64,000 nucleotides of DNA from Lutibacter citreus (GTDB taxonomy: Bacteria; Bacteroidota; Bacteroidia; Flavobacteriales; Flavobacteriaceae), in the NCBI RefSeq assembly GCF_003260195.1, contig NZ_QEIH01000004.1, positions 310,001 to 374,000 on the forward strand. Reading direction: 5' to 3'. Below the pieces are notes generated by a model. That model had not been told where the DNA came from. It searched no databases and saw nothing but the letters and a program-made list of their open reading frames with translations. This document shows positions 3,201 through 43,596 of this stretch, piece by piece (the stretch's first letter is position 1; each line of letters begins with the position of its first letter). Position numbers and translations under genes: made by a program.

Positions 3201-4733
3201 TTATTCTAATTCCAATTTTAAAACATTAGCAATAGGGTTATACTCTACATCTGGCATTGTTAGCAATAATGTTTGCGGGGTAAGCTTCCAATCTATATCT
3301 ATGTTTGCCCCCATCAGTTTTATATTTTTGATAGGTGAAGGAGGAAGATTACGGTGAAATCCACCAATAGATCGCATTTTAATAGTTTCTCCAGCTTTAG
3401 GCACACCTAAAAAGAAGACATACATTGACTTTTTATCTTTAGCAACGGTATAACGTACATCGCTAGCGGTATATTTTACTTTTGCCGATTGTCCATCATG
3501 AGAAGCATCTGAAGCATTGGCATTTCCATATCCAAAAACTTTAAATGGTCTTGTTTTATATACAGCTTCACCATAAACAGACATCCATTCCCCAATATCC
3601 TTTAAAATAGCTCTTTGTTCTTGATTAATAACACCATCTGCACGAGGTGAAATATTAAGTAGTACTGTACCATTTTTACTCCAAACATCAATCATATTTC
3701 TTACTACTAATGCGGCATCCTTATACTTTTCACCTTCCACATACATCCAATGACTATTACTCAAGGTAATATCTGTCATCCAAGGCAAAGGGTAAATATC
3801 TCTACGCCCACCTTGCTCCAAGTCATCAATTCCAATTTCCAAAGAAATATCTTGATGCTTGCTACAAACTACCACTTCTTGGTTATTCTTTAACCCACTA
3901 TTAAAATGATACGCTAGCATCTCGTTTATTTTATCCTCAGGTATCATATTTAGCCACGAATCGTACCATAAAATGTCTGGTTCATACTTATCTACAACCT
4001 CCTCAACTTGATCAAGCCAATATTGGTTGAAATCATTAATATTCTCCCAGTTCCCAAATAATTTACGAAGCTTTGGATCTGTAGTTGCTGTAGGAAGATC
4101 TGGATGATAAGGGTAATGACTGTTAAAACCATTACGCCCCCAATATTCTGGTTTATTAGCATTGCGTTGTCCGTTACGAGCGTGATGAAAAGTTGCTAAT
4201 GTCTTAATGTCTCGCTTTTTTAATGAAGTAAATAGCTCACCTAAAACATCTCGTTTTGGTCCCATATCTGCAGCATTCCAAGGATTCACCTCACTATCCC
4301 ACATAGCAAAACCGTCATGATGTTCAGCTACCGGACCTGCAAACTTTGCTCCTGTTGTTTTAAACAAATCGGCCCACTCTTCTGGATCAAAATGTTCGGC
4401 AGTAAACATTGGGATAAAATCTTCATACCCAAACTCCTCAATTGCGCCAAAATTCTTTTCATGAAACTTGTTCACATCACTTCCTTTCATATACATATTA
4501 GCAGGATACCAAGCACTCCCATAAGCTGGAACGCTATATGGTCCCCAATGAAAATACATTCCTAGCTTAGCATCCTGAAACCATTCTGGCGCTGCTTCGT
4601 GTTTTGAAAGTGACTCTAGAGTAGGTTCATATTTTTCCTGTTTTTGAAGAATTGTACTTGATGCATTTTTCTGATTACATGCACTCACTAAAATTAGTAC
4701 AAATACTAAACTGAAAATTATTTTTAGTTTCAT
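3201..4733 (-). CDS. GH29 alpha-L-fucosidase-family lipoprotein
   Basis: The 510-residue lipoprotein has a signal ending in LILVSAC. The GH29 barrel spans about 40-390 with family landmarks LGMYFHWGPYSVP, AEHHDGFAMWDS, ATFHHARNG and ILWYDSWL. The Asp at residue 258 in the last is the expected nucleophile. NGTVLLNISPRADG marks the barrel end, and a beta-rich domain follows to the C-terminus. GH29 enzymes are retaining exo-alpha-L-fucosidases, and some marine members act on alpha-L-galactose. Which is used here cannot be told from sequence. It is the last gene of the 18661-3201 operon, 27 bases behind another GH29, with a terminator after it. It resembles the 4761 and 48851 paralogues more than the one at 56971. 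Confidence 0.88.
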   Translation of the reverse strand: MKLKIIFSLVFVLILVSACNQKNASSTILQKQEKYEPTLESLSKHEAAPEWFQDAKLGMYFHWGPYSVPAYGSAWYPANMYMKGSDVNKFHEKNFGAIEEFGYEDFIPMFTAEHFDPEEWADLFKTTGAKFAGPVAEHHDGFAMWDSEVNPWNAADMGPKRDVLGELFTSLKKRDIKTLATFHHARNGQRNANKPEYWGRNGFNSHYPYHPDLPTATTDPKLRKLFGNWENINDFNQYWLDQVEEVVDKYEPDILWYDSWLNMIPEDKINEMLAYHFNSGLKNNQEVVVCSKHQDISLEIGIDDLEQGGRRDIYPLPWMTDITLSNSHWMYVEGEKYKDAALVVRNMIDVWSKNGTVLLNISPRADGVINQEQRAILKDIGEWMSVYGEAVYKTRPFKVFGYGNANASDASHDGQSAKVKYTASDVRYTVAKDKKSMYVFFLGVPKAGETIKMRSIGGFHRNLPPSPIKNIKLMGANIDIDWKLTPQTLLLTMPDVEYNPIANVLKLELE

Positions 4734-4760
4734 TCTATGTTGTTTTCTATAATTCTTTAA

Positions 4761-6257
4761 CTATCTATTAATTTTGAATACAAATGCATTATTACATGGT
4801 TTTTCCTTCGGAAGTTTAATTTCCAATGCAAGATCTTTTTGTTCCCACTCTAACTTCACTTTACAACCAATTAATTCAACACTTTTAACCTTTCCATTAT
4901 AAGCTGTAGAACCGAATGATTTAATTGGTAAAACACCTGATTCTGGCCATCCCAAGGCTATTGCATATAATTGACCATCTCTAGTTGTAAATCGAATATC
5001 TTTATCTGTAAAACCATCAAATTTTTTATCGGCCAAATGCCCAGTTTTTGTTTCGGTTGGTCCTTCGCCATAAATTAACCAAGGACGACTTTTATAAATT
5101 GCCTCACCATTTAACTTTAGCCATTTACCCATTGCTAATAAGCGTTGTTTTTGTTCTTCTGGAATTGTTCCATTAGGATGCGGAGCAACATTAAGCAACA
5201 AACATCCGTTTTTACTAACAATATCAACCAAATCATCAATCAATCTATTTTCTGAATAACATTCTAAATCTGTTGTCCAGCTCCATGAATCTCTAGAAAT
5301 TGAATTATCTGTTAACCAAGGTTCAGGATAAATATCAGGCATACGAGCGCGTTCTAAATCAACTGTTCCAACACCTAAAGGTAAATCTGGGCGCTTAAAA
5401 GTAAGTACGGCCTCAATATTATTTTCTGCTGCATGATTATAATAGTAAGCCACCATTTGCTGTCTAATACTTTCAGATAAAATCTCCATACGATTATCAA
5501 ACCACAATAAATCTGGTGAATAACCATCAACTACTTCTTTTACCTTTTCTAACCAAACACGCTCAAACTCTTTACTAGGCATAGGATAACAGTTTTTAAC
5601 TCTTTCCTTAGTCTCTATTCTACGTGACGTTTTAGGTAATTTTTCACCATATAAAGAAGCATTAGCGGGGTCAAAACAATCAGTTCCTTCTTGCCAAGTA
5701 GGGAACCATCCCCAAAGCCAAGAATGATGTAAACTAACTACATATTTTAAACCTCGTTTACGAATTGCTTTTTCCATTTCAGCAACAACATCACGTTTTG
5801 GCCCTTTACTTACAGAGTTCCAAGGATTAACCTTTGAGTTCCACATTGAAAAACCATCCGCATGTTCACCTGCAGGACCTGCAAACTGAGCACCTGCTTT
5901 TACAAATAAGTCTGCCCATTCATCTGCATTAAATTTTTCAGCTTTAAAAAGAGGTACTAAATCTTTATATCCAAATTCATCAACTGGTCCAAATTTTTCT
6001 ATATGATGCTTGTTATTTGATGTTCCTTTAGCATACATAAAGCGTCCGTACCAATCTGTTTTACTTGGAGCTTCAGGAACCGAGTATACTCCCCAATGGG
6101 TGTAAATTCCAAACTTCGCATCTTTAAACCATTCCGGACATTCGTATTGAGAAAGTGATTCCCAATTAGGTTGAAATTGTTTTCTGGAATCCTTTTGTCC
6201 GAAGACTGAAAAAGTTAACAGAAAAAAACATATTACAAGTGTATTACCTATTTTCAT
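4761..6257 (-). CDS. GH29 alpha-L-fucosidase-family enzyme, periplasmic
   Basis: The 498-residue protein has a cleavable signal peptide (about 1-20, ending SVFGQ) and no lipobox Cys. GH29 motifs run in order: [51 protein letters not shown] with the nucleophile candidate Asp254, and [16 protein letters not shown]. An all-beta C-terminal domain follows. The sequence AGEHADGF replaces the usual EHHDGF, so one of the paired active-site histidines of typical GH29 enzymes appears as Ala. This may change the sugar accepted. It lies 24 bases after a mannosidase-type GH2 and before a second GH29, so the pair probably acts on different linkages of one oligosaccharide. Confidence 0.87.
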
Positions 6258-6281
6258 ATTTTATTTTATTAATTAGTTCTT

Positions 6282-8789
6282 TTAATTTTTATTAAACTCT
6301 TTAACAGTTGGCATTAATTCGTCAGCTTGTTTTACTCCTTTGGTTCCATTTAACCCTTCAAAATATCGTAAGTAATTATGAGAACCGTATTTTGCCTTTT
6401 TATCTTTGGCTTCTTGTCCAATTTCTCTTAATCTAGGTAAGTCTACTTTTTCATTACCTACTAACAATAGATATTTATTTTCTGAAATAATTTTACCAGA
6501 ATTGTCTTTCAATTTTAATTCAACATGAAACTGATCTCCTAATTTACCTGGAACTTTACAATTTACTGTTGCATATTCTTTTGAACTATCTGAACTTACT
6601 TTTCCAATATTAACAACTTCTCTTTTAACTTCTTTTTTGTTAGCATCATAAAATACAACTTCAGCCTTACAGGAATTGAATTCTTTATAAAAATCATTTA
6701 CAACCCATAATTTACCTGTGAATTCTTCACCCGGCAACCATCTTCTTTTATTGTGTTGTAAACTTATCAATAATGGTTGATAAGCCATTTTCACATAGTC
6801 ATAAGATATTTTTGGTTGCTGATAATAATCTACAATTCCCCATTTCATATCTGGTGCAAATGTGATGTAATGACAAATACAAATAGCACTTGTTTTTGGT
6901 TTTCTTCTTCGGAAATATTCCAAACCATATTGAAAAATAATTCCCTGCGCCATTTGAGTTGCATCTACAAACTCCTGCATACTTCCAGTTGCCTGCGTAT
7001 TTAAGGCATCAAAATTTAAAGTTCTAAAGGTATCAAAATCTGTCCAATGATGTCCCCAACTTGGACCTGGTGGCCAAAGCTCGTCTTCAGGAATAAACTT
7101 TTTAATACTTTCAACATTAGGACACGATGAAATAGCTAATTCTGGAACTGCGGCAAAATCTTTCTTCATAAAAAATCGTTCCATATTGTTACTTCCCTCT
7201 CCATAAAACAACCCATTGGCATGTACGCTTTCATTTGGCTTGAAACCTAATTCCACTCCAACGTGATCGCTCAAAGGCGAAACAGGAACGTAATGCAGAT
7301 TGGTATATGGTTTTATAACTTCGCCCAATTCTTTCATAAATTTAAGATTATGAACTGGATCAGAAGCAGTCATTAAAATTTCTTCTCCACCTTCAATTAT
7401 AACCATACAAGGATGATTTCTTAACTCTTTTACAACAGAAATAGCGTCAGAGAAGATTTGTTTCTTGTACGCTTCATCCTTTGGAAGTGAAAGGCTAGCA
7501 ATTGGTAAAATATCTTGCCAAACCGTAATACCTTCTCTATTACACAATTCATAGAAGTATGGAATTTCGGTTGGATGCCAACCAAAAATTCTTAGGTTAT
7601 TCATATTACCCGCCTTCGCCAAACGAACAAACTCCTCATATTTTTCATTTGTAGCTCGGCCAAAGAAAATATCTGGTGGACCACCCCAAGTTCCTGAGCG
7701 AATAAAATGTCGTTTTCCGTTTACCATAACTGTCCATGGGTTTTCAACCTGATCTTTTGTATATCCAGGATTCATAACCATTTTTAATTCACGAATTCCA
7801 AATAATTTACTGTGCGCATCTAATACTTCGTTCTTACTGTTCTTTATTGAAATAGCAGCCGTGTAAAGGTTTTGATCTCCCAAATCCCAAGGATACCATA
7901 ATTTAGCATCTGAAATATGAAGTGGAACCGTAAATTCATTTTTTCCTGGTTGAAGTTTTTTCTTAACCGTAGTTTTATATGCCTTTGATTTGAAATTTTC
8001 TCCTTGAATATTCAATTCTATGTCTACATTTCTAGCACTGTTTCCTTTGTTCTCTATTTCAACCTGAATATTTAAATCTGCAGAATTCTTTTTACCAAGC
8101 TCAGTTTGCACATAAATATCCGTTATCTTAGTATCATCAAATGCTTCCAAGCGCACTGGTTTCCATATACCTGTTGGTACCAAATCTACCCAGTAATCTC
8201 CGTGCCAAGCTGGTTTTCTACCAGCTACTTGACTGTAGCGTCTGGGCGCTGGATGTAATCGAACTGCCAACGTATTTCTTCCTCTACGTTTGAATTCAAA
8301 ACTTACCAAATCAGTAATATCATACGAAAAAGGGGTAAACATTCCTTCGTGTGAACCTAGTATTTTTCCATTTAAAAAAACATCGCATGCATAATCAACT
8401 CCATCAAACGTAAGTTCAATTTTTTTGCCTTTCATTTCTTTTGGTACATTGAAAATATTCAAATACCACCATTCATATTCATTTACCCATTTAGCCTTTA
8501 CACTATTTCTTCCATAATGAGGATCATCAATACGGCCAACTCTCCATAAGTCGGTAAATACATCACCTGGAACGTGAGCTGGAGCCCAATTCAATGCATC
8601 TCCCATATGATCATAACTTATCTCAGGAAATTTTTCTTCTAAACCTCTTCCCGGTAAAGTTCCTTGTACTTTCCAATGAAAACCACTTAAATCGTGAACC
8701 AACCGTTTTGTTTGTTGTGCATTTATTGATGTGCCGAAAAGAGCAACTATCAACAATAGTACTATATGATTAAATTGAATTTGTTTCAT
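6282..8789 (-). CDS. GH2 family glycosidase, beta-mannosidase/glucosaminidase-like type
   Basis: The 835-residue protein has a signal peptide (about 1-24, ending INAQ). The sugar-binding jelly roll (about 30-215) includes AHVPGDVFTDLW, YEWWYLNIFNVP and PTGIWKPVRLEAF, which resemble the beta-mannosidase branch of GH2 rather than LacZ. An Ig-like domain and a TIM barrel follow. The acid/base region reads IIEGGEEIL (about 465-470) where most GH2 enzymes have an Asn-Glu pair. The likely nucleophile is the Glu in VPELAISS (about 550). The Asn to Gly/Glu change is unusual, so the substrate may not be mannose. Its ATG overlaps the stop of the upstream GH117-like gene (TAATG), indicating translational coupling. 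Confidence 0.82.
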   Translation of the reverse strand: MKQIQFNHIVLLLIVALFGTSINAQQTKRLVHDLSGFHWKVQGTLPGRGLEEKFPEISYDHMGDALNWAPAHVPGDVFTDLWRVGRIDDPHYGRNSVKAKWVNEYEWWYLNIFNVPKEMKGKKIELTFDGVDYACDVFLNGKILGSHEGMFTPFSYDITDLVSFEFKRRGRNTLAVRLHPAPRRYSQVAGRKPAWHGDYWVDLVPTGIWKPVRLEAFDDTKITDIYVQTELGKKNSADLNIQVEIENKGNSARNVDIELNIQGENFKSKAYKTTVKKKLQPGKNEFTVPLHISDAKLWYPWDLGDQNLYTAAISIKNSKNEVLDAHSKLFGIRELKMVMNPGYTKDQVENPWTVMVNGKRHFIRSGTWGGPPDIFFGRATNEKYEEFVRLAKAGNMNNLRIFGWHPTEIPYFYELCNREGITVWQDILPIASLSLPKDEAYKKQIFSDAISVVKELRNHPCMVIIEGGEEILMTASDPVHNLKFMKELGEVIKPYTNLHYVPVSPLSDHVGVELGFKPNESVHANGLFYGEGSNNMERFFMKKDFAAVPELAISSCPNVESIKKFIPEDELWPPGPSWGHHWTDFDTFRTLNFDALNTQATGSMQEFVDATQMAQGIIFQYGLEYFRRRKPKTSAICICHYITFAPDMKWGIVDYYQQPKISYDYVKMAYQPLLISLQHNKRRWLPGEEFTGKLWVVNDFYKEFNSCKAEVVFYDANKKEVKREVVNIGKVSSDSSKEYATVNCKVPGKLGDQFHVELKLKDNSGKIISENKYLLLVGNEKVDLPRLREIGQEAKDKKAKYGSHNYLRYFEGLNGTKGVKQADELMPTVKEFNKN

Positions 8790-10081
8790 TACTGTTTTTT
8801 TAATTCTTCAGTTTCTTTTTTAATACGCTCTTTCTGCTTACCATTTAAACCATGTTTTTCATAATGAAATTCAGGACTGTAATTGTAATAATGGTCTTTC
8901 ATTTGTTGATCATCAACATCTTGACTTAAATCACAATCAAAACGCGTAAGTATAGAATGATTCCAGTTTCCATCTGCATTTATAAAATGAGAAATACCCC
9001 AAGTTATTCCTCTTCCATTTTTTGTATCAGTAAAAGCATCAGGAACAAAAGGCCCAGCAGCAACAGGTAATAATTCAGTAATTGAGGCTATTTCAAAATT
9101 CACCCAATCTTTTGCATACTGAATGGTGTTATGCTCTTGACCATCTCGCTGTACAATTGCAGCAACTCCTTCTTTAAAAGGGAATAATGTTGTTTCGTGC
9201 CCTGAATTTATTATTGGATTTAATGAATGCTTTACAAACGGCCCAAGCGGATCTTCAGCAATGGCCAAACCTTGCATTCTTATTTTTGAAGGTTTGAATT
9301 CTGGACGTTTATCAAAATCACCTTTATAATACAAATAGATTTTACCATCGTGTACCAACGGATATGGATCGTGAATTGAATATTGATCCCAAGAACCTTC
9401 AGGTCCGTTTGGAATTACAATTTTGCCTGTGTGTGTCCAAGGACCATCAGGAGAGTCGGCATAAGCAACTGAAACTGGACAAAAATCACCTCGTAAACCA
9501 CTTGCCTCCATAAAAGCTTGAAAGTATAAATAATATTTTCCATTAAATTTTAAAATATCGGTTGTTGTAACTGAACGCCAACCAGCTTGTGGCTTTGGTG
9601 GACGAGGAACTGCAACACCTTGTTCTACCCAAGTAAAACCATCTTCAGAAGTAGCATAAAAAATATCCGCCAAATCCCAATCTGCAGATGGAATTACATC
9701 AGTAGCTTCTTTTGCTCTTGACATTCCAACTGGTTTAACTGGAGATTCTCTGTGCGTATACCAAACGTAATATTTTCCTTTTTCAAAAATTACTTTTGAA
9801 GGATCTCTTCGTGTTATTGTTCCATCTCCACCATTATAATCAAACCCCTTTAATTTTGTGTATTTAAATTGGGTATACAACTCATTTTGTTCTGGACGAA
9901 TAGAAGAATAAGCATCGTAATTACGTTCCACAGCCGCACTTAAAGGACGATTAGGTTTTTCCTTTGGAATAAAAAACGGAAATTCCTCTTGTTTACTTTC
10001 TTCTAGCTTACTTTTTTCTTGCTTTTGTTGACATGATACTACTATCAACCCTAGCATTATAACGTATAATATTCTTTTCAT
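8789..10081 (-). CDS. GH117-like 3,6-anhydro-L-galactosidase-family lipoprotein
   Basis: The 430-residue lipoprotein (lipobox LIVVSC) has a five-bladed propeller. The conserved acidic residues are seen as Asp93 in RRDPSKVIF and Asp238 in IHDPYPLVHDG, plus the adjacent His295-Glu296 in NSGHETTLFPF. These fit the residues described for GH117 enzymes such as the Bacteroides plebeius and Zobellia homologues, where an adjacent His/Glu pair and two aspartates form the active site. The family releases 3,6-anhydro-L-galactose from the non-reducing end of agaro-oligosaccharides. The C-terminal YYNYSPEFHYEKHGLNGKQK extension is typical of the domain-swapped family. It is sandwiched between a divergent paralogue and a GH2, and its stop overlaps the GH2 start. 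The true substrate may be a substituted anhydro- or L-galactose. Confidence 0.85.
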   Translation of the reverse strand: MKRILYVIMLGLIVVSCQQKQEKSKLEESKQEEFPFFIPKEKPNRPLSAAVERNYDAYSSIRPEQNELYTQFKYTKLKGFDYNGGDGTITRRDPSKVIFEKGKYYVWYTHRESPVKPVGMSRAKEATDVIPSADWDLADIFYATSEDGFTWVEQGVAVPRPPKPQAGWRSVTTTDILKFNGKYYLYFQAFMEASGLRGDFCPVSVAYADSPDGPWTHTGKIVIPNGPEGSWDQYSIHDPYPLVHDGKIYLYYKGDFDKRPEFKPSKIRMQGLAIAEDPLGPFVKHSLNPIINSGHETTLFPFKEGVAAIVQRDGQEHNTIQYAKDWVNFEIASITELLPVAAGPFVPDAFTDTKNGRGITWGISHFINADGNWNHSILTRFDCDLSQDVDDQQMKDHYYNYSPEFHYEKHGLNGKQKERIKKETEELKKQ

Positions 10082-10103
10082 AATTTAAATTCGTTTTTAA
10101 GAA

Positions 10104-11396
10104 TTATTCAATAATTCTCTCTCTGTTTTCTTTTTGAATGCGTTCTCGTTGGGCTTTACTTAACTTCAACTTGTAGTAAATGTCAGGACTCCATAAGTTA
10201 TTAAATTTCTTCATTTCCGGATCGTGAACATCTAAACTCAAATCACAGTCAAACCTTGCTAATTCTGAATAATATTTTCCATCTGATCCTTTAACATTTC
10301 TAAAATGGCATACCCCCCAAGTAATTCCACGTCCATCTCCGTTATCAGCAAAAGCATCAGGAATAAAAGCATTAGGTCCTATAGGCATCATTTCGGTGAT
10401 AGATTCTATTTCAAAATTCACCCAATCTTTGGCATACTGAATCGTAAAATGTTCATTCCCATCTCTTATTGTTAATGATGCTACTCCTTCTTTAAAAGGA
10501 AATAAACATATCTCATGACCTGAATTTTGAACTGGGTTCAAAGGATGTTTCTCGAAAGGGCCAAGTGGATTTTCTGAAATAGCTAAACCAATAGCACTCC
10601 ATTTTCCATTATACCCCACACGATTGCCTATTGGACGATTAAAATCAACCTTATAATACATATAAACTTTATTATTATGAATTAAAGGAGTAGGTGCTTG
10701 AACAGTAAATTGATCCCATGAACCTTTTGGTCCGGTAGGCAAGACTACCTTATTATAATGAATCCATGGTCCATCAGGCGAATCCGCATAAGAAACTGAA
10801 GCCACACAATCGTCACCTTTAAGTCCAGGCGTTTCACTAAAAGCCTGATAATAGAGATAAAATTTACCTTTCCACTTTAGAATATCTGGAGTAGCAACCG
10901 ATCTAAAACCAGGAATAGGCTTAGCCGGACGAGTTACCGCCACTCCTTGCTCCTCCCAAGTAAAACCATCTTCACTTGTTGCATACCATATTTCTGATAA
11001 ATCCCAATCAGCTGAAGGTATCTCCTCGGTAGCATTTTTGGCATTACCTAAACCTATTGGTCTAACTTTAGTAGCTCTTTTTGTATACCAAACATAATAC
11101 TTTCCATTTTCAAGTAAAACCTTAGAAGGATCACGTCTGGTAATGGTTCCATCTCCACCATTGTAATCGAAACCTTTTAACTTTGTGTATTTAAATTGGC
11201 TATACAATTCATTCTCGGCAAGTAATGGTGACGGATATTCATGAAAACTTCTTTTCATGGCAGCACTCATTGGACTATCTGCATCTACATCAGAAACCAT
11301 ATAAGGGAATACTGTTTGTGTTGTTTCTTCTTTTTCTTTTGTTTGGCAAGAAGCAAACAATGTAATCGCTATTATTAAAATTATATAATTTTTCAT
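10104..11396 (-). CDS. GH117-like paralogue with altered second acidic site
   Basis: The 430-residue lipoprotein (lipobox TLFASC) aligns along its full length with the neighbour at 8789-10081. Asp89 (RRDPSKVLL) and the His294-Glu295 pair (NSGHEICLF) are kept. The IHDPYP motif of the paralogues reads TVQAPTPLIH here, so the second conserved Asp is replaced by Ala234 or an equivalent residue. In the known GH117 mechanism this Asp is part of the acidic cluster. The protein may therefore be inactive, act on another sugar, or bind without cleaving. The frame is intact and codon use matches its neighbours, so this is divergence rather than decay. It lies 22 bases before the next GH117-like gene and 8 bases after a GH2. 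Confidence 0.82.
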   Translation of the reverse strand: MKNYIILIIAITLFASCQTKEKEETTQTVFPYMVSDVDADSPMSAAMKRSFHEYPSPLLAENELYSQFKYTKLKGFDYNGGDGTITRRDPSKVLLENGKYYVWYTKRATKVRPIGLGNAKNATEEIPSADWDLSEIWYATSEDGFTWEEQGVAVTRPAKPIPGFRSVATPDILKWKGKFYLYYQAFSETPGLKGDDCVASVSYADSPDGPWIHYNKVVLPTGPKGSWDQFTVQAPTPLIHNNKVYMYYKVDFNRPIGNRVGYNGKWSAIGLAISENPLGPFEKHPLNPVQNSGHEICLFPFKEGVASLTIRDGNEHFTIQYAKDWVNFEIESITEMMPIGPNAFIPDAFADNGDGRGITWGVCHFRNVKGSDGKYYSELARFDCDLSLDVHDPEMKKFNNLWSPDIYYKLKLSKAQRERIQKENRERIIE

Positions 11397-11404
11397 ATTA
11401 AAAT

Positions 11405-14239
11405 TTATTTGAAATCAAATGTTAATTCTATTACAATCATCTCGTCATCATTACCAAATAAGTGTTCTGGATTTGATTGCGGACCTAACTTATAAGGCTC
11501 TTGGAATTTTGTTCCAATAGCAGGAATATTCTTTACAAATGAAATATCCCCAACAGGAAAATCTTTTACCGTAGCTCCTTTTTGAGCATTCAATGGTTGC
11601 TCTGGTGTGAGCATACGTAAAAAAGTATGATCTGAATGGCAGTACACCGTAAAACCATTGTTGTTATTACCTTTAACTTTCACCCAGTTTAAACTTGAGA
11701 AAAATCCTTTAAACTCTGGATATACAAAACCAGATTCACCTGTAATAGTATTGTTATAATCATTCTCCCAAACTTGAAACTTTGTTCCTTTCATTCGATT
11801 ACGCCAAACACGATAAGGTCCATCTCCTAGCCACTTCATACCATTCACTTCTTCCTCCGGAAAAGAAAAACTAAGCCCTATACATTCTGTCACTTTTCGT
11901 TTACCTTTCATTTCAACCTTTAAATCCAATAAACCATTTTGGTGAACAGTCCATTTTATAAAGTCTTGATTATACTCATCATTATCCCAATCGTGATATT
12001 TATGCTTTTTTTCATACAGAGCAATCACTTCTATTTTTTCTTTTGAAGTAACCACTTTAACCGACTCCAACTTTCCTTTTTGACCTATTATAATTGGCCC
12101 ATCCTTCAATGGAATTACGCGACCTTCTTTAATTACCTCTTGAAGTAAACCTGTTTCTTCGTCAAATTTGAAGTTGATATTCTTTGTACTAACTATTATT
12201 TGAGAGTTATTTATTACAGATTTTATCTCGCCATTTCCACTATAGCTTATTTTATTTGCATTTATTTGTTTTGGTGTTTTAACTGGATATGTCCACGTGA
12301 ATATTTCCATTCCGTATTGATCCGTTGCTGTTAAATAAAGTGCATCTGCAGATTTCCAATTTGTAGGTAATTCAACATTAAAAGAACCTTTCATTTCAGG
12401 AGCTAACGCCGGAAGTTTAACTTCACTTTGTGACAAAACAACTTGAGAAGTATTTCCTTCTGGCCCTTCAAACTGAACCCATTTAGCTATCATTTTACAA
12501 ACATCAAGATTTGTATAATGGTATCTGTTTTCTACTTTAAAAATTCCAGAAAAATCATCTCTAATAATACGATCAGGAATATAAATTGGTGACCAAATTT
12601 CTTTAATAGTGAAATAACTTCCTTCTTTTTCACCATATGGACCAACAATACCATCTGCAGCGTGATTACCATCGGTATCTAATACACCATTCTCATCTGT
12701 TCGCACAACTGCTTCATCTGCAAAATCCCACAGAAATCCGCCTGCAGATAATGGCATATTCCACATTTGCGTCCAATAATCATCCAATCCTGCACCGTGC
12801 CCACCATCATACAAACCGTGCATAAACTCCGTTGGAAAATAAATTTTATCCTTTGAATATGAATCGTAAGCAAATACGTGATAATCTGGATAGTGCATTG
12901 TATTTGTTTTCTTAAAAATATTCCAAGGATGTATTACCTCTCTTTTTTGAATATCCCATTTCGAAAAATCATCATCTAATTCCAAGTTCCAACCTGTTTC
13001 ATTTCCGTTTGCCCACAATAATATAGAAGGATGATTAACATCACGAACAACCATTTCATTTACAATTTTCTCTCCTATTTCCGTATCTAAATATGGATTG
13101 TGCCACGTACAAACTTCATCTATTACAAATAGCCCAATTGAATCACAAGCTTCTAAAAAGTGAACATCTGGCGGATAATGAGACATACGAACCGCATTCA
13201 TATTCATATCTTTCATCATTTTTATATGCTCAATACTTAAAGCTTTTGATGTAGTTCTACCTGAAGAAGGGTAAAAAGAATGACGGTTAACGCCTTTAAA
13301 TTTTATTGCAATACCATTAACATAAATACCATCGCTTTCACGAACTTCAACAGTTCTAAATCCAATTTTCTGACTAGACTTATGAAGTACTTCTTTGTTT
13401 TTATTAAGTAATTCGAAATTTAATTTATAAAGATTTGGGCTTTCTGGATTCCACGTTTTCACATTACTTGCTTTCGCTGAAATACTCCATTTACCATTCT
13501 CTTTATGAATAGTACTTATTGGTAAATCTTGAATTTTATGATCATTTACATCTGTCAAAAATAAATTTAATGAAGTTGCTTTTTTAGAGCTCATAAAAAC
13601 AGCTGCATTGATAGATCCATCTGCTTTTGCATCAACTGCAACTCTTTCAATATTTTCTTTTGGCGAAACTTCTAAATAAACCGGATGATAAATCCCTCCA
13701 AAAATCCAGAAATCTGCTCTACGTTCCGCATAATTGATAGATTCATTACTAGATACTTTACTTACTTTAACCTCCAATAAGTTATCTGCTCCATATTTAA
13801 GTAACTTCGATATAGAATATTTAAATTCATAAAAAGCCCCTTGATGAATTTCTCCCGCAAGTTTTCCATTTATTTTCACTTCAGCATCGGTCATAACACC
13901 TTCAAAAACAATCTTCACTTCTTTATTTTCCCATTCTTTTGGCACATTAAATTTATGCTTATAAAGTCCATGTTCATCGTTAATTTTTTTACCTGAACGA
14001 GCATCGTGACCATAATTATAATGACCAAAACCTTGCAATTCCCAATTAGATGGAACTCCAATTTTTGTCCATCTTTTACTGTTCATTCCATCTGAACAAT
14101 AAAAATCCCATTCAACCATATTGTCTTTATCTATTCCCGACAAATATTGAATTTTAGTGTTGTTTTGAGCAAAAACAACTTCTGAAATGCTAAAAATAAA
14201 AATAACCAGAAGAAGTGTATATATTTTAAAATATTTCAT
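11405..14239 (-). CDS. GH2 family beta-galactosidase-like enzyme, periplasmic
   Basis: The 944-residue protein has a signal peptide ending VVFAQ. The domain order is LacZ-like: sugar-binding jelly roll (about 40-205, with FWIFGGIYHPVYLE), Ig-like domain, TIM barrel with GVNRHSFYPSSGRT and NAVRMSHYPPD, acid/base in LWANGNETGW (Glu about 414), nucleophile in FPTEFMHGLYDGG (Glu about 470), then a large C-terminal galactose-mutarotase-like domain with GDGPYRVWRNRM. This is the long (about 900 or more residues) GH2 form known for beta-galactosidases. The 14404 gene is a clear tandem duplicate with the same domain plan and long identical stretches. An intergenic repeat separates the two. Beta-galactosidase action on sulfated-galactan oligosaccharides is inferred. 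Confidence 0.86.
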   Translation of the reverse strand: MKYFKIYTLLLVIFIFSISEVVFAQNNTKIQYLSGIDKDNMVEWDFYCSDGMNSKRWTKIGVPSNWELQGFGHYNYGHDARSGKKINDEHGLYKHKFNVPKEWENKEVKIVFEGVMTDAEVKINGKLAGEIHQGAFYEFKYSISKLLKYGADNLLEVKVSKVSSNESINYAERRADFWIFGGIYHPVYLEVSPKENIERVAVDAKADGSINAAVFMSSKKATSLNLFLTDVNDHKIQDLPISTIHKENGKWSISAKASNVKTWNPESPNLYKLNFELLNKNKEVLHKSSQKIGFRTVEVRESDGIYVNGIAIKFKGVNRHSFYPSSGRTTSKALSIEHIKMMKDMNMNAVRMSHYPPDVHFLEACDSIGLFVIDEVCTWHNPYLDTEIGEKIVNEMVVRDVNHPSILLWANGNETGWNLELDDDFSKWDIQKREVIHPWNIFKKTNTMHYPDYHVFAYDSYSKDKIYFPTEFMHGLYDGGHGAGLDDYWTQMWNMPLSAGGFLWDFADEAVVRTDENGVLDTDGNHAADGIVGPYGEKEGSYFTIKEIWSPIYIPDRIIRDDFSGIFKVENRYHYTNLDVCKMIAKWVQFEGPEGNTSQVVLSQSEVKLPALAPEMKGSFNVELPTNWKSADALYLTATDQYGMEIFTWTYPVKTPKQINANKISYSGNGEIKSVINNSQIIVSTKNINFKFDEETGLLQEVIKEGRVIPLKDGPIIIGQKGKLESVKVVTSKEKIEVIALYEKKHKYHDWDNDEYNQDFIKWTVHQNGLLDLKVEMKGKRKVTECIGLSFSFPEEEVNGMKWLGDGPYRVWRNRMKGTKFQVWENDYNNTITGESGFVYPEFKGFFSSLNWVKVKGNNNNGFTVYCHSDHTFLRMLTPEQPLNAQKGATVKDFPVGDISFVKNIPAIGTKFQEPYKLGPQSNPEHLFGNDDEMIVIELTFDFK

Positions 14240-14280
14240 TTTTTTATTTTATAGATTATGAAGTTGAATAAAAAATATTA

Positions 14281-14366
14281 CGCACCATCATTCTGAACTT
14301 GTTTCAGAATCTCATCACACTTATTGTTAATGATTATAAGAACCTGAAACAAGTTTAGGTTGACGT
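14281..14366. repeat. Intergenic inverted-repeat element between two GH2 genes
   Basis: Opposed arms CTGAACTTGTTTCAG and CCTGAAACAAGTTTAGG (reading inward) form a long hairpin. The outer end (CGTCAACCTAAACTTG on the minus strand) and the inner ATGAGATTCTGAAA string recur in the element at 24180-24332. It is a small dispersed palindromic or MITE-like repeat rather than a classic terminator, since no clean T-run follows. It could weaken read-through within the operon. Confidence 0.6.
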
Positions 14367-14403
14367 AAATTCGACTTTTTAAATTCAAACATTTTATTCA
14401 TTA

Positions 14404-17247
14404 TTAAAACTCAAATGTTAAATCAATTTCTATTAAATCGTCATCATTACCAAAATAATGTTCTTTATTTCCGTGAGGCCCCATAGAATCTGAATATTGA
14501 AATTTTGTTCCAATCCCCGGTACATTCATTACAAAAGAAATATCTCCTTCTGGAAATTTAGGAGTTACTTTATCCCTATCATAAGCAACAGGATTTTCTG
14601 GCGTTAGCATACGTAAATACACATGTGGAGATTTGCAATAAACCGTAAATCCATTATTATCATTCCCTTTTAATTTTGACCAATAGAGACTTGAGAAAAA
14701 CCCTTTAAACTCGGGATACACAAAACCAGATTCACCAGTTATTGTATTGTTATAATCGTTCTCCCAAACTTGAAATTTGGTTCCTTTCATTCTATTTCTC
14801 CAAACTCTATATGGCCCATCCCCTAGCCATTTCATACCTGCAACTTCTTTTTCAGGAAAAGAGAATGTTATACCTCTATATCCTTTTAAATTTCTAAAAC
14901 CTTTGAATTTCACGTTTAAATCTAACAAGCCATTAGAATACACCGTCCATTTTATAATATCTGATGAAAATTCTTTTACTGTTGACCAAGCAGGTGATTT
15001 ACTTTTAGGTTCAAAAACAACAGTAATCTCCACCTTATTTTTGAATGAATTTAAAGTCACATTTTCTATTTTATCTTTCTGATTTAAAATAATAGGTCCA
15101 TTGTTTAAAGGAATAAGAGTATTTCCTTTTTTCACTTCTTGTAACATTCCTGTTTTTTCAGAAAAAGAATATTTCATTGCACCGGCTACAACAATAATTT
15201 CACCATTTGAAGTCTTAGTAGTAACCGTTCCTTCACCTTCATAATCAATTTTAGATTTATTTAAACTTTTAGGTGTTGAAACTGGATATGACCAAGTAAA
15301 AATTTCTTTTCCATTAAAATCAATAGCTGTTAAATATAAAGCATCTGCAGATTTCCAATTATTAGGTTTTTCAACATTGAATTTCCCTTTTTCCAATGGA
15401 GCTAAATTTGGTAAACCTACTTCACTTTCTGAAATAACTGAATAATTAGAAGCTTCATTAGGACCTTCAAATTTCACCCACTTAGCTGTCATTGAACATT
15501 TATTCAAATTTGTATAATGGTATCTATTTTCTAAACGAAAAACCCCATTAAAATCATCACGAATAAAACGGTCTTCAATAAATATGGGTGACCAAATTTC
15601 TTTTATAGTAAAGTAACTTGCTTCTTTTTCTCCATAAGGTCCAACAATACCATCGGCAGCTTTACTACCTTGTAAATCAATTTTTCCATTTCTATCTGTT
15701 CGCTCAATACCTTCATCAGCAAAATCCCATAAAAATCCACCTGCAGATAATGGTAAACTCCACATTTTCTCCCAATAATCTTCTAAACCAGCACCGTGAC
15801 CACCATCATACAAACCATGTAAAAATTCCGTAGGAAATAATATTTTATCTTTTGAATAAGAATCATTTACCAAAGAATGGTAATGACTGTAATGAATGGT
15901 ATTTGTTTTTTTATAAATACTCCAAGGATGGATTACTTCTCTATTTTGAATATCCCATTTTGCATAATCATCATCTACTTCTGGATTCCAACCTTGTTCG
16001 TTTCCATTTGCCCACAATAAAATGGATGGATGATTTACATCTCGAACTACAGTTTCTTTTACAATTTTTCGAGCAACTTTTGTATCTAACATAGGATTGT
16101 GCCACGTACAAATTTCATCTATAACAAATAAGCCCAACGAATCACAAACTTCTAAAAAATGAGTATCTGGCGGATAATGAGACATACGAACGGCATTCAT
16201 ATTCATATCCTTCATCATTTCAACGTGCTCAATACTCAATGCTTTTGAAGTTGTACGTCCAGATTTAGGGTGAAAAGAATGACGATTAACACCTTTAAAC
16301 TTAATGCGCTCACCGTTTACATAAATCCCATCACCTTCTAAAACCTCAACAGTTCTAAAACCAATTCTTTTATTTACTTTATGAAGTACTTTTTTATTTT
16401 TAGCCAGCATTTCAATAGTTAGCATATATAAATTTGGGCTTTCTGGATTCCAAGTTTTAATATTGTTTGCTTTTGTTGAAACATTCCATTTTTCGTTGGC
16501 TCTAGAATTTTCTTTTACCGTTAAATCTTGAATTTTAATTCCTTTCTCATCAGACAAAAACATTTTAATTGATGTTCCCTTTTTAGAAACTGTAAAAATA
16601 TCTGCATTTATAGTTCCATTAGCTTTTGCCTCTATAGCAACACGTTCTATATTTTCTTTTGGTGAAACTTCTAAATATACTGGACGATAAATACCTCCAA
16701 AAATCCAGAAGTCGGCATCTCTCTCAGCATGATTAATAGATTCATTTGCTGAAACCTTATTTACTTTAACTTCTAACACGTTATCTGCTCCGTATTTAAG
16801 TATTTTATTAATAGTATACTTAAATTCGTAAAAAGCACCTTGATGGATTTCGCCTGCTAGTTTGCCATTTATCTTTACTTCGGCATCAGTCATAACTCCT
16901 TCAAAAACAATTTTAACGTCTTTGTTTTTCCAGTTCTTAGGCACAGAAAAAGTATGCTTGTACAAACCAAATTCAGAAGCTCTATTTTTTGTATCATCAC
17001 TTCCGTAGTTATAAGCCCCAAACCCCTGCTGTTCCCAACAAGAAGGAACTCCAATAGTTGTCCACTTACCACTTTTCATTCCCTTAGAGCAGAAAAAACC
17101 CCATTCAACTAGATTATCACTACCAGTTCCTGAAAGATATTTTCTCTCGGTTTCCGCATCGCTCTTTGTTGATGAAACAACCTGAGAAACAGCAAATTGC
17201 TGAATCAGAACAACAAAAGTTAGTAATACTATTTTTAAATTTCTCAT
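14404..17247 (-). CDS. GH2 family beta-galactosidase-like enzyme, tandem duplicate
   Basis: The frame is open from 17286, but the ATG at 17247 is preferred. It starts directly at a normal signal peptide (MRNLKIVLLTFVVLIQQFAV) and lies 10 bases past the uxaC stop, whereas the longer start overlaps uxaC. Domains match the 11405 paralogue: jelly roll with FWIFGGIYRPVYLE, Ig-like domain, TIM barrel with LWANGNEQGW (acid/base Glu about 417) and FPTEFLHGLYDGG (nucleophile about 473), and a C-terminal mutarotase-like domain with GDGPYRVWRNRM. The two proteins differ mainly in the Ig-like and C-terminal regions, so they may accept differently substituted galactosides. It is the second gene of the operon headed by uxaC. 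Confidence 0.86.
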   Translation of the reverse strand: MRNLKIVLLTFVVLIQQFAVSQVVSSTKSDAETERKYLSGTGSDNLVEWGFFCSKGMKSGKWTTIGVPSCWEQQGFGAYNYGSDDTKNRASEFGLYKHTFSVPKNWKNKDVKIVFEGVMTDAEVKINGKLAGEIHQGAFYEFKYTINKILKYGADNVLEVKVNKVSANESINHAERDADFWIFGGIYRPVYLEVSPKENIERVAIEAKANGTINADIFTVSKKGTSIKMFLSDEKGIKIQDLTVKENSRANEKWNVSTKANNIKTWNPESPNLYMLTIEMLAKNKKVLHKVNKRIGFRTVEVLEGDGIYVNGERIKFKGVNRHSFHPKSGRTTSKALSIEHVEMMKDMNMNAVRMSHYPPDTHFLEVCDSLGLFVIDEICTWHNPMLDTKVARKIVKETVVRDVNHPSILLWANGNEQGWNPEVDDDYAKWDIQNREVIHPWSIYKKTNTIHYSHYHSLVNDSYSKDKILFPTEFLHGLYDGGHGAGLEDYWEKMWSLPLSAGGFLWDFADEGIERTDRNGKIDLQGSKAADGIVGPYGEKEASYFTIKEIWSPIFIEDRFIRDDFNGVFRLENRYHYTNLNKCSMTAKWVKFEGPNEASNYSVISESEVGLPNLAPLEKGKFNVEKPNNWKSADALYLTAIDFNGKEIFTWSYPVSTPKSLNKSKIDYEGEGTVTTKTSNGEIIVVAGAMKYSFSEKTGMLQEVKKGNTLIPLNNGPIILNQKDKIENVTLNSFKNKVEITVVFEPKSKSPAWSTVKEFSSDIIKWTVYSNGLLDLNVKFKGFRNLKGYRGITFSFPEKEVAGMKWLGDGPYRVWRNRMKGTKFQVWENDYNNTITGESGFVYPEFKGFFSSLYWSKLKGNDNNGFTVYCKSPHVYLRMLTPENPVAYDRDKVTPKFPEGDISFVMNVPGIGTKFQYSDSMGPHGNKEHYFGNDDDLIEIDLTFEF

Positions 17248-17257
17248 GTTGTACATT

Positions 17258-18661
17258 TTAGTTAAAATTGAAATAATTTTTAGCATTGTTATAGCAAATA
17301 TCTTTCACCATATTGCTTAATAATTCCATATCATTTGGTATCAAACCATTTTCAACATCATTTCCCAATAAATTACATAATATTCTTCTGAAATAATCGT
17401 GACGAGAATAAGATATAAAACAACGAGAATCTGTTAACATACCAATAAAACGACTTAATAAACCTAAGTTTGATAAGGCATTCATTTGAGCTTCCATACC
17501 CGATTTTTGATCTAAAAACCACCAACCTGAACCAAATTGAATTTTCCCAGGAATAGTTCCATCTTGAAAATTCCCAATCATAGTAGCAACTACTTCGTTA
17601 TGTGATGGATTCAAATTATAAATAATTGTTTTTGTTAATTTATCATCTTGATCTAATCTGTTTAAAAACTTAGACATTGAAGCCGCACTATTAATATCGT
17701 GAATAGAATCAAATCCAGTATCTGGACCTAATTTAGACAACAATCTGCTATTATTATTTCGTATTGCTCCATAATGAAATTGATGTGTCCATCCTTTTTT
17801 ATGATCCATTATACCGAATTCATAAAGCATTGCAGATTTAAACTTTAAAATTTCTTTTGAAGTTAATCTAATTCCAGATCTAGCTTTAAAAAATATAGTT
17901 CTAATTTCAGTATCCTCATAATCTTCAGCATAAAAAGCCTCAATACCGTGGTCAGATAATTTACACCCAACTTCATTAAAAAAATCATGACGTACTTTTA
18001 AAGCATCTATTAAATCTTCAAATGAATTTATATAAATACCAGAAACATCAGACAATTTTACCATATACTCATTAAACTCCTCAACATCTTCAACAGCCAT
18101 TGCTTTATCTGGTCTCCAAGCTGGCAACACCTTAATTTCGCAATCGCTTTTTGCAATTTGAATATGATATTTTAAAGAGTCTATAGGATCATCTGTAGTA
18201 CAAACCACCTCAACATTCATTCTTTTCATTAAACCTTGAGGCTTATAAGCATCCGTTTTTAACTTTTCATTTGCTAAATCCCAAACTTCTTTTGCTGAAT
18301 CTTTGTTTAATATACCTTCAAAACCAAAATATAATTTAAGCTCCATATGTGTCCAATGGTATAATGGATTTCTTAATGTATAAGGAACAGTTTCAGCCCA
18401 TTTTTCAAACTTTTCCCAGTCCGAAGCATTTCCAGTACAATATTTTTCTGAAACCCCATTGGTTCTCATTGCTCTCCACTTGTAATGATCGCCATACAAC
18501 CAAAGCTCTGTTAGATTCTTAAAGTTTTTATTTTCTGCTATTAGCTTTGGACTTAAATGACAATGGTAATCTATAATTGGCATTTTTACAGCGCTATTAT
18601 GAAATAAATCTATGGCTGTTTCAGTTTCAAGAATAAAATTTTTATCCAAAAATGGTTTCAT
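17258..18661 (-). CDS. uxaC: Glucuronate (uronate) isomerase
   Basis: The 467-residue protein has no signal peptide and is cytoplasmic. It belongs to the amidohydrolase-fold uronate isomerase family: the metal-binding motif IDYHCHLSP (His33, His35) is near the N-terminus, followed by family strings WLYGDHYKWRAMRTNG, TLRNPLYHWTHMELK and CTTDDPIDSLKYH, and RFIGMLTDSRCF with SRHDYFRRILC near the end. It converts D-glucuronate to D-fructuronate, or D-galacturonate to D-tagaturonate. The length is normal. As the first gene of a GH2/GH117/GH29 operon it implies that uronic acid is among the released sugars, matching the GH105 gene elsewhere in the window. Its promoter region is shared with the divergent membrane regulator at 18805 and holds the triple TAAC repeat. 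The later steps of uronate catabolism are not seen here. Confidence 0.93.
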   Translation of the reverse strand: MKPFLDKNFILETETAIDLFHNSAVKMPIIDYHCHLSPKLIAENKNFKNLTELWLYGDHYKWRAMRTNGVSEKYCTGNASDWEKFEKWAETVPYTLRNPLYHWTHMELKLYFGFEGILNKDSAKEVWDLANEKLKTDAYKPQGLMKRMNVEVVCTTDDPIDSLKYHIQIAKSDCEIKVLPAWRPDKAMAVEDVEEFNEYMVKLSDVSGIYINSFEDLIDALKVRHDFFNEVGCKLSDHGIEAFYAEDYEDTEIRTIFFKARSGIRLTSKEILKFKSAMLYEFGIMDHKKGWTHQFHYGAIRNNNSRLLSKLGPDTGFDSIHDINSAASMSKFLNRLDQDDKLTKTIIYNLNPSHNEVVATMIGNFQDGTIPGKIQFGSGWWFLDQKSGMEAQMNALSNLGLLSRFIGMLTDSRCFISYSRHDYFRRILCNLLGNDVENGLIPNDMELLSNMVKDICYNNAKNYFNFN

Positions 18662-18732
18662 TTTCCTTACTTATTAATTAATTAAAAAAATTGTTACTCA
18701 AATATATTTATAAAGAATAGATTTTATAACTT

Positions 18733-18762
18733 TAACGCATCTTTAACGGTAGCTATAACGGT
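18733..18762. promoter_or_regulatory. Triple direct-repeat operator candidate (TAACGGT half-sites)
   Basis: Three same-strand half-sites: TAACGCA starting at 18733, TAACGGT at 18744 and TAACGGT at 18756, spaced 11 and 12 bp. The array ends 42 bases before the ATG of the divergent membrane regulator and starts 72 bases before the uxaC ATG. The same arrangement and spacing occurs at 43548-43577 before the paralogous regulator. Roughly one-helical-turn direct repeats suit PhoB/OmpR-type winged-helix domains, which bind tandemly. Confidence 0.7.
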
Positions 18763-18804
18763 TAAAGAAAAATGTAATTAACTGAATATCAAACCAAATA
18801 TCAA

Positions 18805-19965
18805 ATGATCACTGCAAAGCTTTCAGCTATTCAGAAACAAGAAATTGTTACTAAAATAAGACAAAGCAATACCTTTAAAAAGGCTTCCACTAGCAATGCT
18901 TTACTTCAATATTTAAATAATGCTACGTTAAAAGGAACTAATTTAAAAGAAGGTGTTATTGATTTAGATTTCTTTGGCAGTAAAGAGGCTTCTGACAAAA
19001 ACAATCCTAGAGTGCGTGTTAATGTTTACAACCTCAGAAAAAAAATAACACAATATTATGAAACTGAAGGTAAAGATGATCTTTGGCAATTAACTATTGA
19101 CAAAGGCCAATATGAAGTTCGTTTTTTCAAAAAACAAGTGAGAAAACCATTTATAAACAAATTGAGTTGGAGAAAATCACTCCCTTATTTAGGTTTATTA
19201 ATTACAATTTCAGCCTTAATATATACCAATACAACTCCAAAACCACCTTCTCTATGGAAATCTATTATTACAAAAGAGAAACCGACACATTTAATTATTG
19301 GAGATCATTTTGGAGTAACCGGAAACACAATAACTGGAGGTTTTGGATGGACCCGTGATTTTGAAATTAATAATATTAATGAATTTTACGCGCTTCTTGA
19401 AGAAAAGCCAGAACTAAAAAACACAATAAGACCTGCAAATTACACCTACACAACTAGAATGGCTGCTTTAGCGGCACAACAATTTGAACGTTTATACCAA
19501 CATTACAATCAGGATTTAGATATTCGGTTTTCAACATTAACTTCTATTTCAGTAATAAAAGAAGGAAACGCTATTTATGCCGGACCTATTAAAAATAAAA
19601 ATCAATTTATTCACTTTTTTAATGAAGCAAACCCTTATTTTACAATAGCAAATGGGGAGCTACACCTATCTAATCATCCGCAATTAAAAGATACTATCTT
19701 TAATTTAAAACCACCTATTGTAGAAGAGGAATACGCTATTGTTTCTAAATACCCTAGCATTGGAGATTCAGAACATTTTGTATTTTTCTCAGATCACGAT
19801 ATAGGTGTAAGTGCAACTGCTGAATATTTCACCAACAAGGATAGTATTCAAAATTTTGTAAACACATATTTAAAGGATAAAAAGTATTTTACGGCTATTT
19901 TTAAAGTTAAAGGACAACACCGAACTAATACTGATATAAAACTAGAAATGGCAGTAGGTTTTTAA
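18805..19965 (+). CDS. ToxR/CadC-like transmembrane one-component regulator (new-looking family)
   Basis: The 386-residue protein has three parts. Residues 1-112 resemble the winged-helix-like N-terminal domain seen in some TPR/cyclase-type signalling proteins: SNALLQYLNNATLKGTNLKE, DLDFFGSK, NPRVRVNVYNLRKKITQYYE and a terminal hairpin DKGQYEVRFF. One hydrophobic helix lies at about 125-143. The rest (about 145-386) is a putative periplasmic domain with no family I can name, carrying LIIGDHFGVTGNTITGG, GWTRDFEINN and FVFFSDHDIGVSATAEYFTN. There is no N-terminal signal peptide, so the N-terminus should be cytoplasmic. The paralogue at 43597-44742 matches along its length. It is divergent from uxaC across the TAAC repeat array. 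A sensor binding a polysaccharide-derived ligand and acting directly on DNA is inferred. Confidence 0.75.
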   Translation: MITAKLSAIQKQEIVTKIRQSNTFKKASTSNALLQYLNNATLKGTNLKEGVIDLDFFGSKEASDKNNPRVRVNVYNLRKKITQYYETEGKDDLWQLTIDKGQYEVRFFKKQVRKPFINKLSWRKSLPYLGLLITISALIYTNTTPKPPSLWKSIITKEKPTHLIIGDHFGVTGNTITGGFGWTRDFEINNINEFYALLEEKPELKNTIRPANYTYTTRMAALAAQQFERLYQHYNQDLDIRFSTLTSISVIKEGNAIYAGPIKNKNQFIHFFNEANPYFTIANGELHLSNHPQLKDTIFNLKPPIVEEEYAIVSKYPSIGDSEHFVFFSDHDIGVSATAEYFTNKDSIQNFVNTYLKDKKYFTAIFKVKGQHRTNTDIKLEMAVGF

Positions 19966-43496: not shown

Positions 43497-43547
43497 TACA
43501 TTTTAAACTGAGTACAAGTTACCACAACCAATTAATTTATTTATATT

Positions 43548-43577
43548 TAACCTGAATTTAACGGTACTTGTAACGGT
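43548..43577. promoter_or_regulatory. Triple direct-repeat operator candidate, second copy
   Basis: Half-sites TAACCTG starting at 43548, TAACGGT at 43559 and TAACGGT at 43571, with spacings of 11 and 12 bp, the same as at 18733-18762. The array ends 19 bases before the ATG of the regulator and lies 52 bases before the GH2 ATG. Between the two copies the half-sites and the flanking TTAAA are conserved while the spacer bases differ, as expected for a protein-binding site. Confidence 0.7.
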
Positions 43578-43596
43578 TAAAAACACACTAAAGGTA

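Follow-up and report, generated by a model that had tools for sequence, protein, structure and literature searches.

A patchily distributed family of putative transmembrane regulators with a putative three-copy tandem operator beside glycan-degradation genes

A gene in Lutibacter citreus encodes a member of a family of predicted membrane-tethered regulators, and most of the family loci that we have collected carry an array of three tandem repeats that separates the regulator gene from a divergently transcribed neighbor. The gene was encountered in a stretch of 64,000 nucleotides of the L. citreus genome, which we call the window, where its divergent neighbor is uxaC. We consider it probable (roughly 0.7) that the protein activates the divergent catabolic operon as a one-component transmembrane regulator, by binding the three-copy array. 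The components are:

18805..19965, plus strand: regulator gene, 386 aa, from the list of open reading frames
Regulator residues 1-112, 122-142 and 149-386: DNA-binding domain, transmembrane (TM) helix and periplasmic alpha/beta domain, respectively, as predicted from AlphaFold2, Trans_reg_C and TM analysis
18727..18767, plus strand: putative operator array, three tandem copies at 11 and 12 bp, from the sequence; position weight matrix (PWM) score 64.0, the best in the window
18699..18706, minus strand: predicted -7 box TATATTTG of the divergent uxaC promoter, at an offset of 28 from the array start
17258..18661, minus strand: uxaC, glucuronate isomerase (PF02614, E 1.8e-209), the divergent first gene and proposed target
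3201..17286, minus strand: genes downstream of uxaC on the same strand, assigned by Pfam
43597..44742, plus strand: second family member in the window, 48% identical
43542..43582, plus strand: second putative operator array, with 11 and 12 bp spacing; PWM score 48.7
40989..43496, minus strand: GH2 enzyme (Pfam) divergent from the second member, proposed target

The first array lies between the start of uxaC (18661, minus strand) and the start of the regulator gene at 18805.

The structure of the protein was modelled with AlphaFold2 using 60 family sequences as input, giving a mean pLDDT of 92.8. The N-terminal part comprises helices at residues 8-19, 28-43, 49-57 and 68-87 and a hairpin at 94-109, and takes up a similar fold when modelled alone (pLDDT 90.5). 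It is followed by a helix at residues 122-142, predicted to span the inner membrane, and by a mixed alpha/beta domain from residue 149 onward. A Kyte-Doolittle peak above 1.6 is found in 73 of 80 members, with a weaker one (1.19) in the ORF 18805 protein, so that the single TM helix proposed in the initial annotation is borne out by both model and hydropathy. Over the same 80 members the net charge is +3.6 before the TM segment and +1.2 after it, and this fits an N-terminus on the inside.

The same annotation had taken the N-terminus to be winged-helix-like, and the sequence profiles agree. Trans_reg_C (PF00486) matches 32 of 60 members at E ≤ 0.1, the ORF 18805 protein being without a match; L096 lies above the PF00486 gathering score, and four other members checked singly lie below it. 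Using hhalign against seven OmpR-type domains of E. coli K-12, residues 28-104 are aligned with a probability of 67.6 and an E of 5e-5, reaching reference columns 35-103 only, that is, the helices and the wing. Thus by sequence profile the fold at the N-terminus appears to be of a DNA-binding, winged-helix type, and it is there that the recognition helix and wing are located. The N-terminal sheet (the beta1-beta4 platform) is absent from the model, and a helix takes its place, as judged from AlphaFold2 and hhalign. No significant match to the N-terminal model was returned by Foldseek from the PDB, some of the insignificant ones being winged helices (MepR, LexA). Foldseek against viral models gave nothing at E ≤ 0.001. 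Searched by sequence, the PDB gave no match for the whole family profile and none for the N-terminal profile, and Pfam and NCBIfam hold no model covering the family. A match to Intein_splicing (E 0.017) falls below its cut-off and was taken as noise.

The plan of the protein is shared with ToxR and CadC, which similarly have an N-terminal OmpR-type recognition helix and wing, one TM helix, a periplasmic C-terminus and no receiver. The family differs from them in having no beta1-beta4 platform, and in occurring as several copies per genome beside glycan genes; the DNA-binding domain of CadC carries a four-stranded beta platform, as described in PMC5430869. Since this platform is missing, we suggest that the family works like ToxR and CadC, and do not class it as a member. 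Of the earlier ToxR/CadC-like label, the plan of N-terminal DNA-binding domain, one TM helix and periplasmic domain therefore stands, while the likeness does not extend to the topology of the DNA-binding domain.

The three copies of the array are TTTAACGCA (18731-18739), TTTAACGGT (18742-18750) and TATAACGGT (18754-18762), followed by TAAAG. They contain the cores noted earlier in the gap between uxaC and the regulator gene, TAACGCA at 18733-18739 and TAACGGT at 18744-18750 and 18756-18762, and the positions and the 11 and 12 bp spacing of these repeats are confirmed in the sequence. The repeat thus has the overall form TTTAACgca/TTTAACGGT/TATAACGGT; in the second array of the window the copies are TTTAACCTG, TTTAACGGT and TGTAACGGT. 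The first two copies show the 11-bp spacing of KdpE, whose half-sites TTTATA and TTTACA are 6 bp each with a 5-bp gap, according to PMC3264566. The family is thus like PhoB, OmpR and KdpE in its recognition helix and wing and in tandem half-sites at 11 bp, and unlike them in that no receiver domain is found, that there are three half-sites at 11 and 12 bp, and that the protein is predicted to be tethered to the membrane.

How closely does the array follow the family? We took as our locus set the best 80 of 125 relatives (79 loci) from a scan of named genomes. Alignment A4 draws on 58 of 60 rows in A2. A strict pattern, AAC N8 AAC[CG]GT N6 AAC[CG]GT, composed after the first upstream sequences had been viewed, is present in the 400 bp upstream of 45 of the 79 family loci, and occurs once elsewhere in both strands of the 1,006,559 bases of those loci. 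That sole site (L054:3546) stands in front of a gene which is itself followed, on the same strand, by the regulator. A PWM was built from 34 nonredundant sites (consensus TAacTTTAACgnnncTTTAACGGTAncTATAACgGTTAAag); the scores of these training sites are circular, and those of the 15 hits outside the strict pattern and of the background are not. The score exceeds 6 at 61 of the 79 loci, L054 being counted by the site before the preceding gene, and a score of 5 is exceeded at two of 1.95 million other positions, of which one is the L054 array. The array that the initial annotation had seen at one locus is therefore found upstream of homologues across the Bacteroidota; marine relatives that carry it include Zobellia uliginosa and Lutibacter oricola. 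Of the two outcomes that the annotation named as refuting its reading, an N-terminus without a DNA-binding fold and homologues lacking the array, neither was obtained. In the L. citreus genome (5.1 Mb) the exact core AACSGT-N6-AACSGTT occurs twice, each time before one of the window members. Allowing one mismatch raises this to 29, compared with 40 for the reversed control, and so there is no sign of further sites in this genome. A role for the array at other operons of the window was rejected, as only two sites score above 8; the next are at 7.1 (the second array read backwards) and 4.3 (40926, minus strand).

The regulator genes themselves are unevenly distributed. The genome of L. citreus has nine, of which two are in the window (18805 and 43597) and a third lies just past its right end (L017, C30:374548-375660). 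This third gene is divergent from a GH2 enzyme and is without the consensus array, having weaker repeats at 12 and 24 bp. Elsewhere in the genus, two genomes have four and six matches, one of the six being a fragment. A search with the single sequence finds matches in 3 of 60 relatives, and a profile search finds them in 23 of 299 genomes of the taxonomic family (two by the N-terminal part only) and in 17 of 395 genomes of the phylum (three by the N-terminal part only, and two weak, with E about 3e-4), the own genome being counted in each case. Thus the family is patchy. The taxa represented among the 79 loci are Flavobacteriaceae, Labilibaculum and other Bacteroidales, Echinicola, Flammeovirga, Reichenbachiella, Marinoscillum, Membranihabitans and one Melioribacteraceae MAG.

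The family is not restricted to these taxa. A tblastn search of plasmids returned six records covering at least 80% of the query, from Persicobacter, Catenovulum (Gammaproteobacteria) and Novosphingobium (Alphaproteobacteria), and a match over 69% of the query in Granulicella (Acidobacteriota). The Granulicella protein is aligned over most of its length by hhalign, with a probability of 99 and a pairwise E of 1e-17. Judged by such alignments, relatives with the full plan occur in Proteobacteria and Acidobacteriota. The divergent neighbor of the Granulicella gene (L162 5962-7293, labelled 'hypothetical protein') encodes a TonB-dependent receptor, and the gene after it a GH1 glucosidase. The Catenovulum gene (L160 6959-8275) is divergent from a c-type cytochrome gene, and has a beta-galactosidase gene on its other side. 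The gene in Persicobacter carries the array, and a repeat search did not find it before those of Catenovulum, Novosphingobium and Granulicella (L160, L161 and L162). By eye, TTTAACAGT and TTTAACTGT can be discerned 24 bp apart just before the start of the Catenovulum gene, where the repeat search gave none. The DNA-binding domain is also found in other settings. It heads two TPR proteins of 541 and 505 aa (L120 and L121), in which the C-terminal part differs, and the N-terminal part has tblastn matches in rhizobial proteins, some of them labelled adenylate cyclase.

The array is related in position to a second conserved element. Read toward the divergent gene, a -7 box TAnnTTTG starts 28 bp from the array start and is perfect at 18 of 50 array loci; these comprise 48 nonredundant loci, after 13 near duplicates were dropped from 61, and the two of the window. 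At this offset 26 of the 50 have at least five of the six box bases (z 7.2), whereas 500 shuffles of the flanks (49 loci) never placed more than two boxes at one offset. Within 150 bp to the left of the arrays two further perfect boxes are found; the regulator side has four, each at its own offset. The second array of the window (43542..43582) has no full box at the fixed offset. The 18 loci with perfect boxes all belong to genera that we take to be Flavobacteriaceae, so that outside this group the fixed offset rests on partial matches. The columns surrounding the array and the box are little conserved and the two elements stand out from them, and this pattern is, on comparative grounds, a footprint. 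Alternatively the array could have no function and be a repeat that arose by chance or was inherited, related loci having a common ancestry. We give this virtually no weight, given that the array and -7 box stand out in this way, and that members with 41-48% protein identity still keep the copies at 11 and 12 bp.

Where would a protein bound to the array stand with respect to RNA polymerase? Bacteroidota promoters have TTTG or TTG at -33, and activators usually bind at about -37 to -68, a class II activator position. In Flavobacterium psychrophilum the -7 box extends from -12 to -5 (PMC9723704), whereby the uxaC transcription start is predicted near 18694, with half-sites centred near -41, -52 and -64. 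Counted from this predicted start the half-sites span about -37 to -68, and hence fall in the position of an activator. The -33 position of the uxaC promoter is occupied by the TAac edge of the array, reading GTTA toward uxaC and not TTTG or TTG, as expected if an activator is needed. The array is organised around the divergent promoter, with the -7 box at a fixed offset, which makes the divergent catabolic operon, and not just the regulator gene, the likely target. We propose that the N-terminal winged-helix-type domain binds the three head-to-tail half-sites, spaced by about one helical turn. As these are placed right behind the location of the -33 element, the bound regulator could recruit RNA polymerase to the -7 box. 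The same operator data would be obtained if the family protein were a repressor that shuts the divergent operon and itself and releases on binding its ligand, and over 47 loci the distance from the array to the start of the regulator is 13-122 bp, so that autoregulation is possible. Yet the array stops short of the -7 box, its half-sites lie where activators usually bind, and the GTTA at -33 is as expected if an activator is needed; we regard repression as unlikely.

Presence of the array goes with the type of recognition helix. The array is present for 61 of the 62 members with a VRVN helix and for none of the 17 with VRVY or VRSK. The 18 of 79 loci at which the consensus array is absent are these 17 together with L075. 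The loci were sought with the pattern VR[VS][YNK]..LRK, which restricts the sampling to these helix types, and the agreement between helix and operator is confounded with shared descent, which may explain it. In the own genome the consensus core is absent before seven of the nine copies. Over 29 non-consensus upstream regions, pairs of half-sites are in excess with peaks at 11, 12 and 23-24 bp, and smaller ones at 10 and 22 bp. The weaker 11/12-bp repeats of these regions vary in sequence and orientation, and beat all of 100 shuffles in 17 of the 29, or in 15 of 26 after merging loci that were fetched twice (L007/L087, L008/L082 and L011/L093). The suggestion that diverged members have the same array reversed, together with a fixed -7 box, was set aside; the 11/12 spacing holds in part, and no fixed box could be made out by eye. 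We envisage that each copy of the regulator would serve its own locus via a private operator, with the consensus array at two of the nine copies in the own genome.

It might also be argued that the array is the site of some other regulator, and that the transmembrane protein acts indirectly. The window does contain two TPR proteins (1509-3140 and 55184-56779) with weak C-terminal matches to a LuxR-type HTH, below cut-off, and these are possibly other regulators of the flanking clusters. Against this, the array and the family occur together at 61 of 79 loci despite differences in the divergent genes; compared with the uxaC row, 3 of 63 rows have 76-78% identity and the rest 0-21%. Moreover the array is found almost nowhere else in the family loci, the two exact cores of the own genome both precede members, and the type of recognition helix goes with the array. 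We consider an indirect role for the transmembrane protein very improbable.

The genes that face the regulators point to the processes that may be controlled. A divergent upstream neighbor is found for 77 of the 79 regulators, compared with 110 of the 459 other genes in these loci. In the 64 of these 77 that were scanned, GH2 is the most frequent Pfam family (21), followed by BNR_4 (8), 3-keto-disaccharide hydrolase (7), UxaC, GH115 and GH43 (4 each) and GH88 (3), where one protein may score under several families. All nine members in the own genome have a divergent neighbor, seven of them with a glycan-related Pfam match; the nine are UxaC, three GH2 enzymes, GH31, GH43 (below cut-off), a sulfatase, sortilin/BNR and one without a match. 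The genes at 3201..17286 downstream of uxaC include two LacZ-type GH2 enzymes, two of GH43, another GH2 and two alpha-L-fucosidases, and may share its regulation, their common strand and small gaps (the largest 164 bp) suggesting co-transcription. More broadly, sulfatases, fucosidases, GH2 and GH43 abound in the cluster at 3201-63997. Next to an aldose epimerase gene it includes a 725-aa ORF (33522-35699) for which Pfam gave no match at E ≤ 1e-5. The initial annotation spoke of a polysaccharide utilization locus (PUL). The glycan-enzyme genes are present as that implies, but no SusC/SusD Pfam match was found in the 36 ORFs scanned out of 42 of at least 100 aa in the window, and the term is a loose one here.

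On the preferred reading of the protein as an activator, its periplasmic C-terminal alpha/beta domain, tethered by the one TM helix, would sense a product of polysaccharide breakdown or, alternatively, a protein carrying that product. Glycan sensing is suggested by the gene context and by a weak likeness of fold. The best PDB match of the full model in Foldseek is BcsB (E 7e-3, probability 0.91), with further matches to alpha-glucuronidases of GH115 (E 0.027, probability 0.98) and GH67 (E about 0.05, probability 0.91-0.93). These matches are not significant; TM-scores are about 0.2, none reaches E 0.001 and the aligned range is not given. The likeness of the model to BcsB, GH67 and GH115 is thus a lead. 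Kinship of the sensor with BcsB found no sequence support by hhalign. If the likeness to accessory domains of glucuronidases were real, it would suggest the origin of a glycan sensor. The signal could be of another kind, such as the state of the envelope, a transporter partner or a uronate from the cytoplasm. CadC, a model for such a plan, needs a transporter partner, the product of uxaC handles a cytoplasmic sugar acid, and the divergent neighbor of the Catenovulum homologue is a cytochrome gene. Set against these, the commonest divergent neighbors are glycan enzymes, and the best, albeit insignificant, matches of the fold are to carbohydrate-handling proteins. We consider a non-glycan signal less likely than not.

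How does the family compare with the known regulators of such loci? HTCS combine histidine kinase, receiver and AraC domains in one protein, and none of these domains was found among 60 members (Pfam, E ≤ 0.1). HTCS, named in PMC3878776, are regulators of this phylum's glycan loci. They are membrane-anchored and control polysaccharide loci; in this respect the family resembles them, and it differs in being without kinase, receiver or AraC domain. SusR is described in PMC3878776 as lying in the membrane, with its sensor in the periplasm and its DNA-binding domain in the cytoplasm, and as activating glycan genes. Its DNA-binding domain is C-terminal, whereas that of the family is N-terminal, and its predicted sites are 67 or 77 bp apart, (PMC3878776), in contrast to 11 and 12 bp for the family. 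The initial annotation foresaw an undescribed class of one-step transmembrane glycan sensors. The family is indeed without a model of its own in Pfam and NCBIfam, but since SusR is membrane-anchored and acts in one step (PMC3878776) the principle is known in the phylum. What is new is the domain plan and operator of the family, the domain order, sensor and operator all differing from those of SusR. We recognised no account of the family in the titles and abstract beginnings of the open-licence papers that our literature searches returned.

To our knowledge, little is known of the regulation of marine polysaccharide degradation beyond SusR, HTCS, ECF and AraC regulators. The present family can be recognised from sequence together with its putative operator and target promoter, so that part of the regulons could be called from genomes, and ligand and target could be paired locus by locus. 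The array and -7 box constitute a candidate inducible promoter for Bacteroidota. A broader and more tentative view, to which we give somewhat less than even odds, is that these are pan-bacterial transmembrane glycan-sensing activators, extending over Bacteroidota, Acidobacteriota and Proteobacteria, with a sensor derived from an accessory domain of glucuronidases and a rigid module of operator and -7 box of the divergent operon. If this is correct, many marine and soil bacteria would use the family as a transmembrane switch for their polysaccharide genes.
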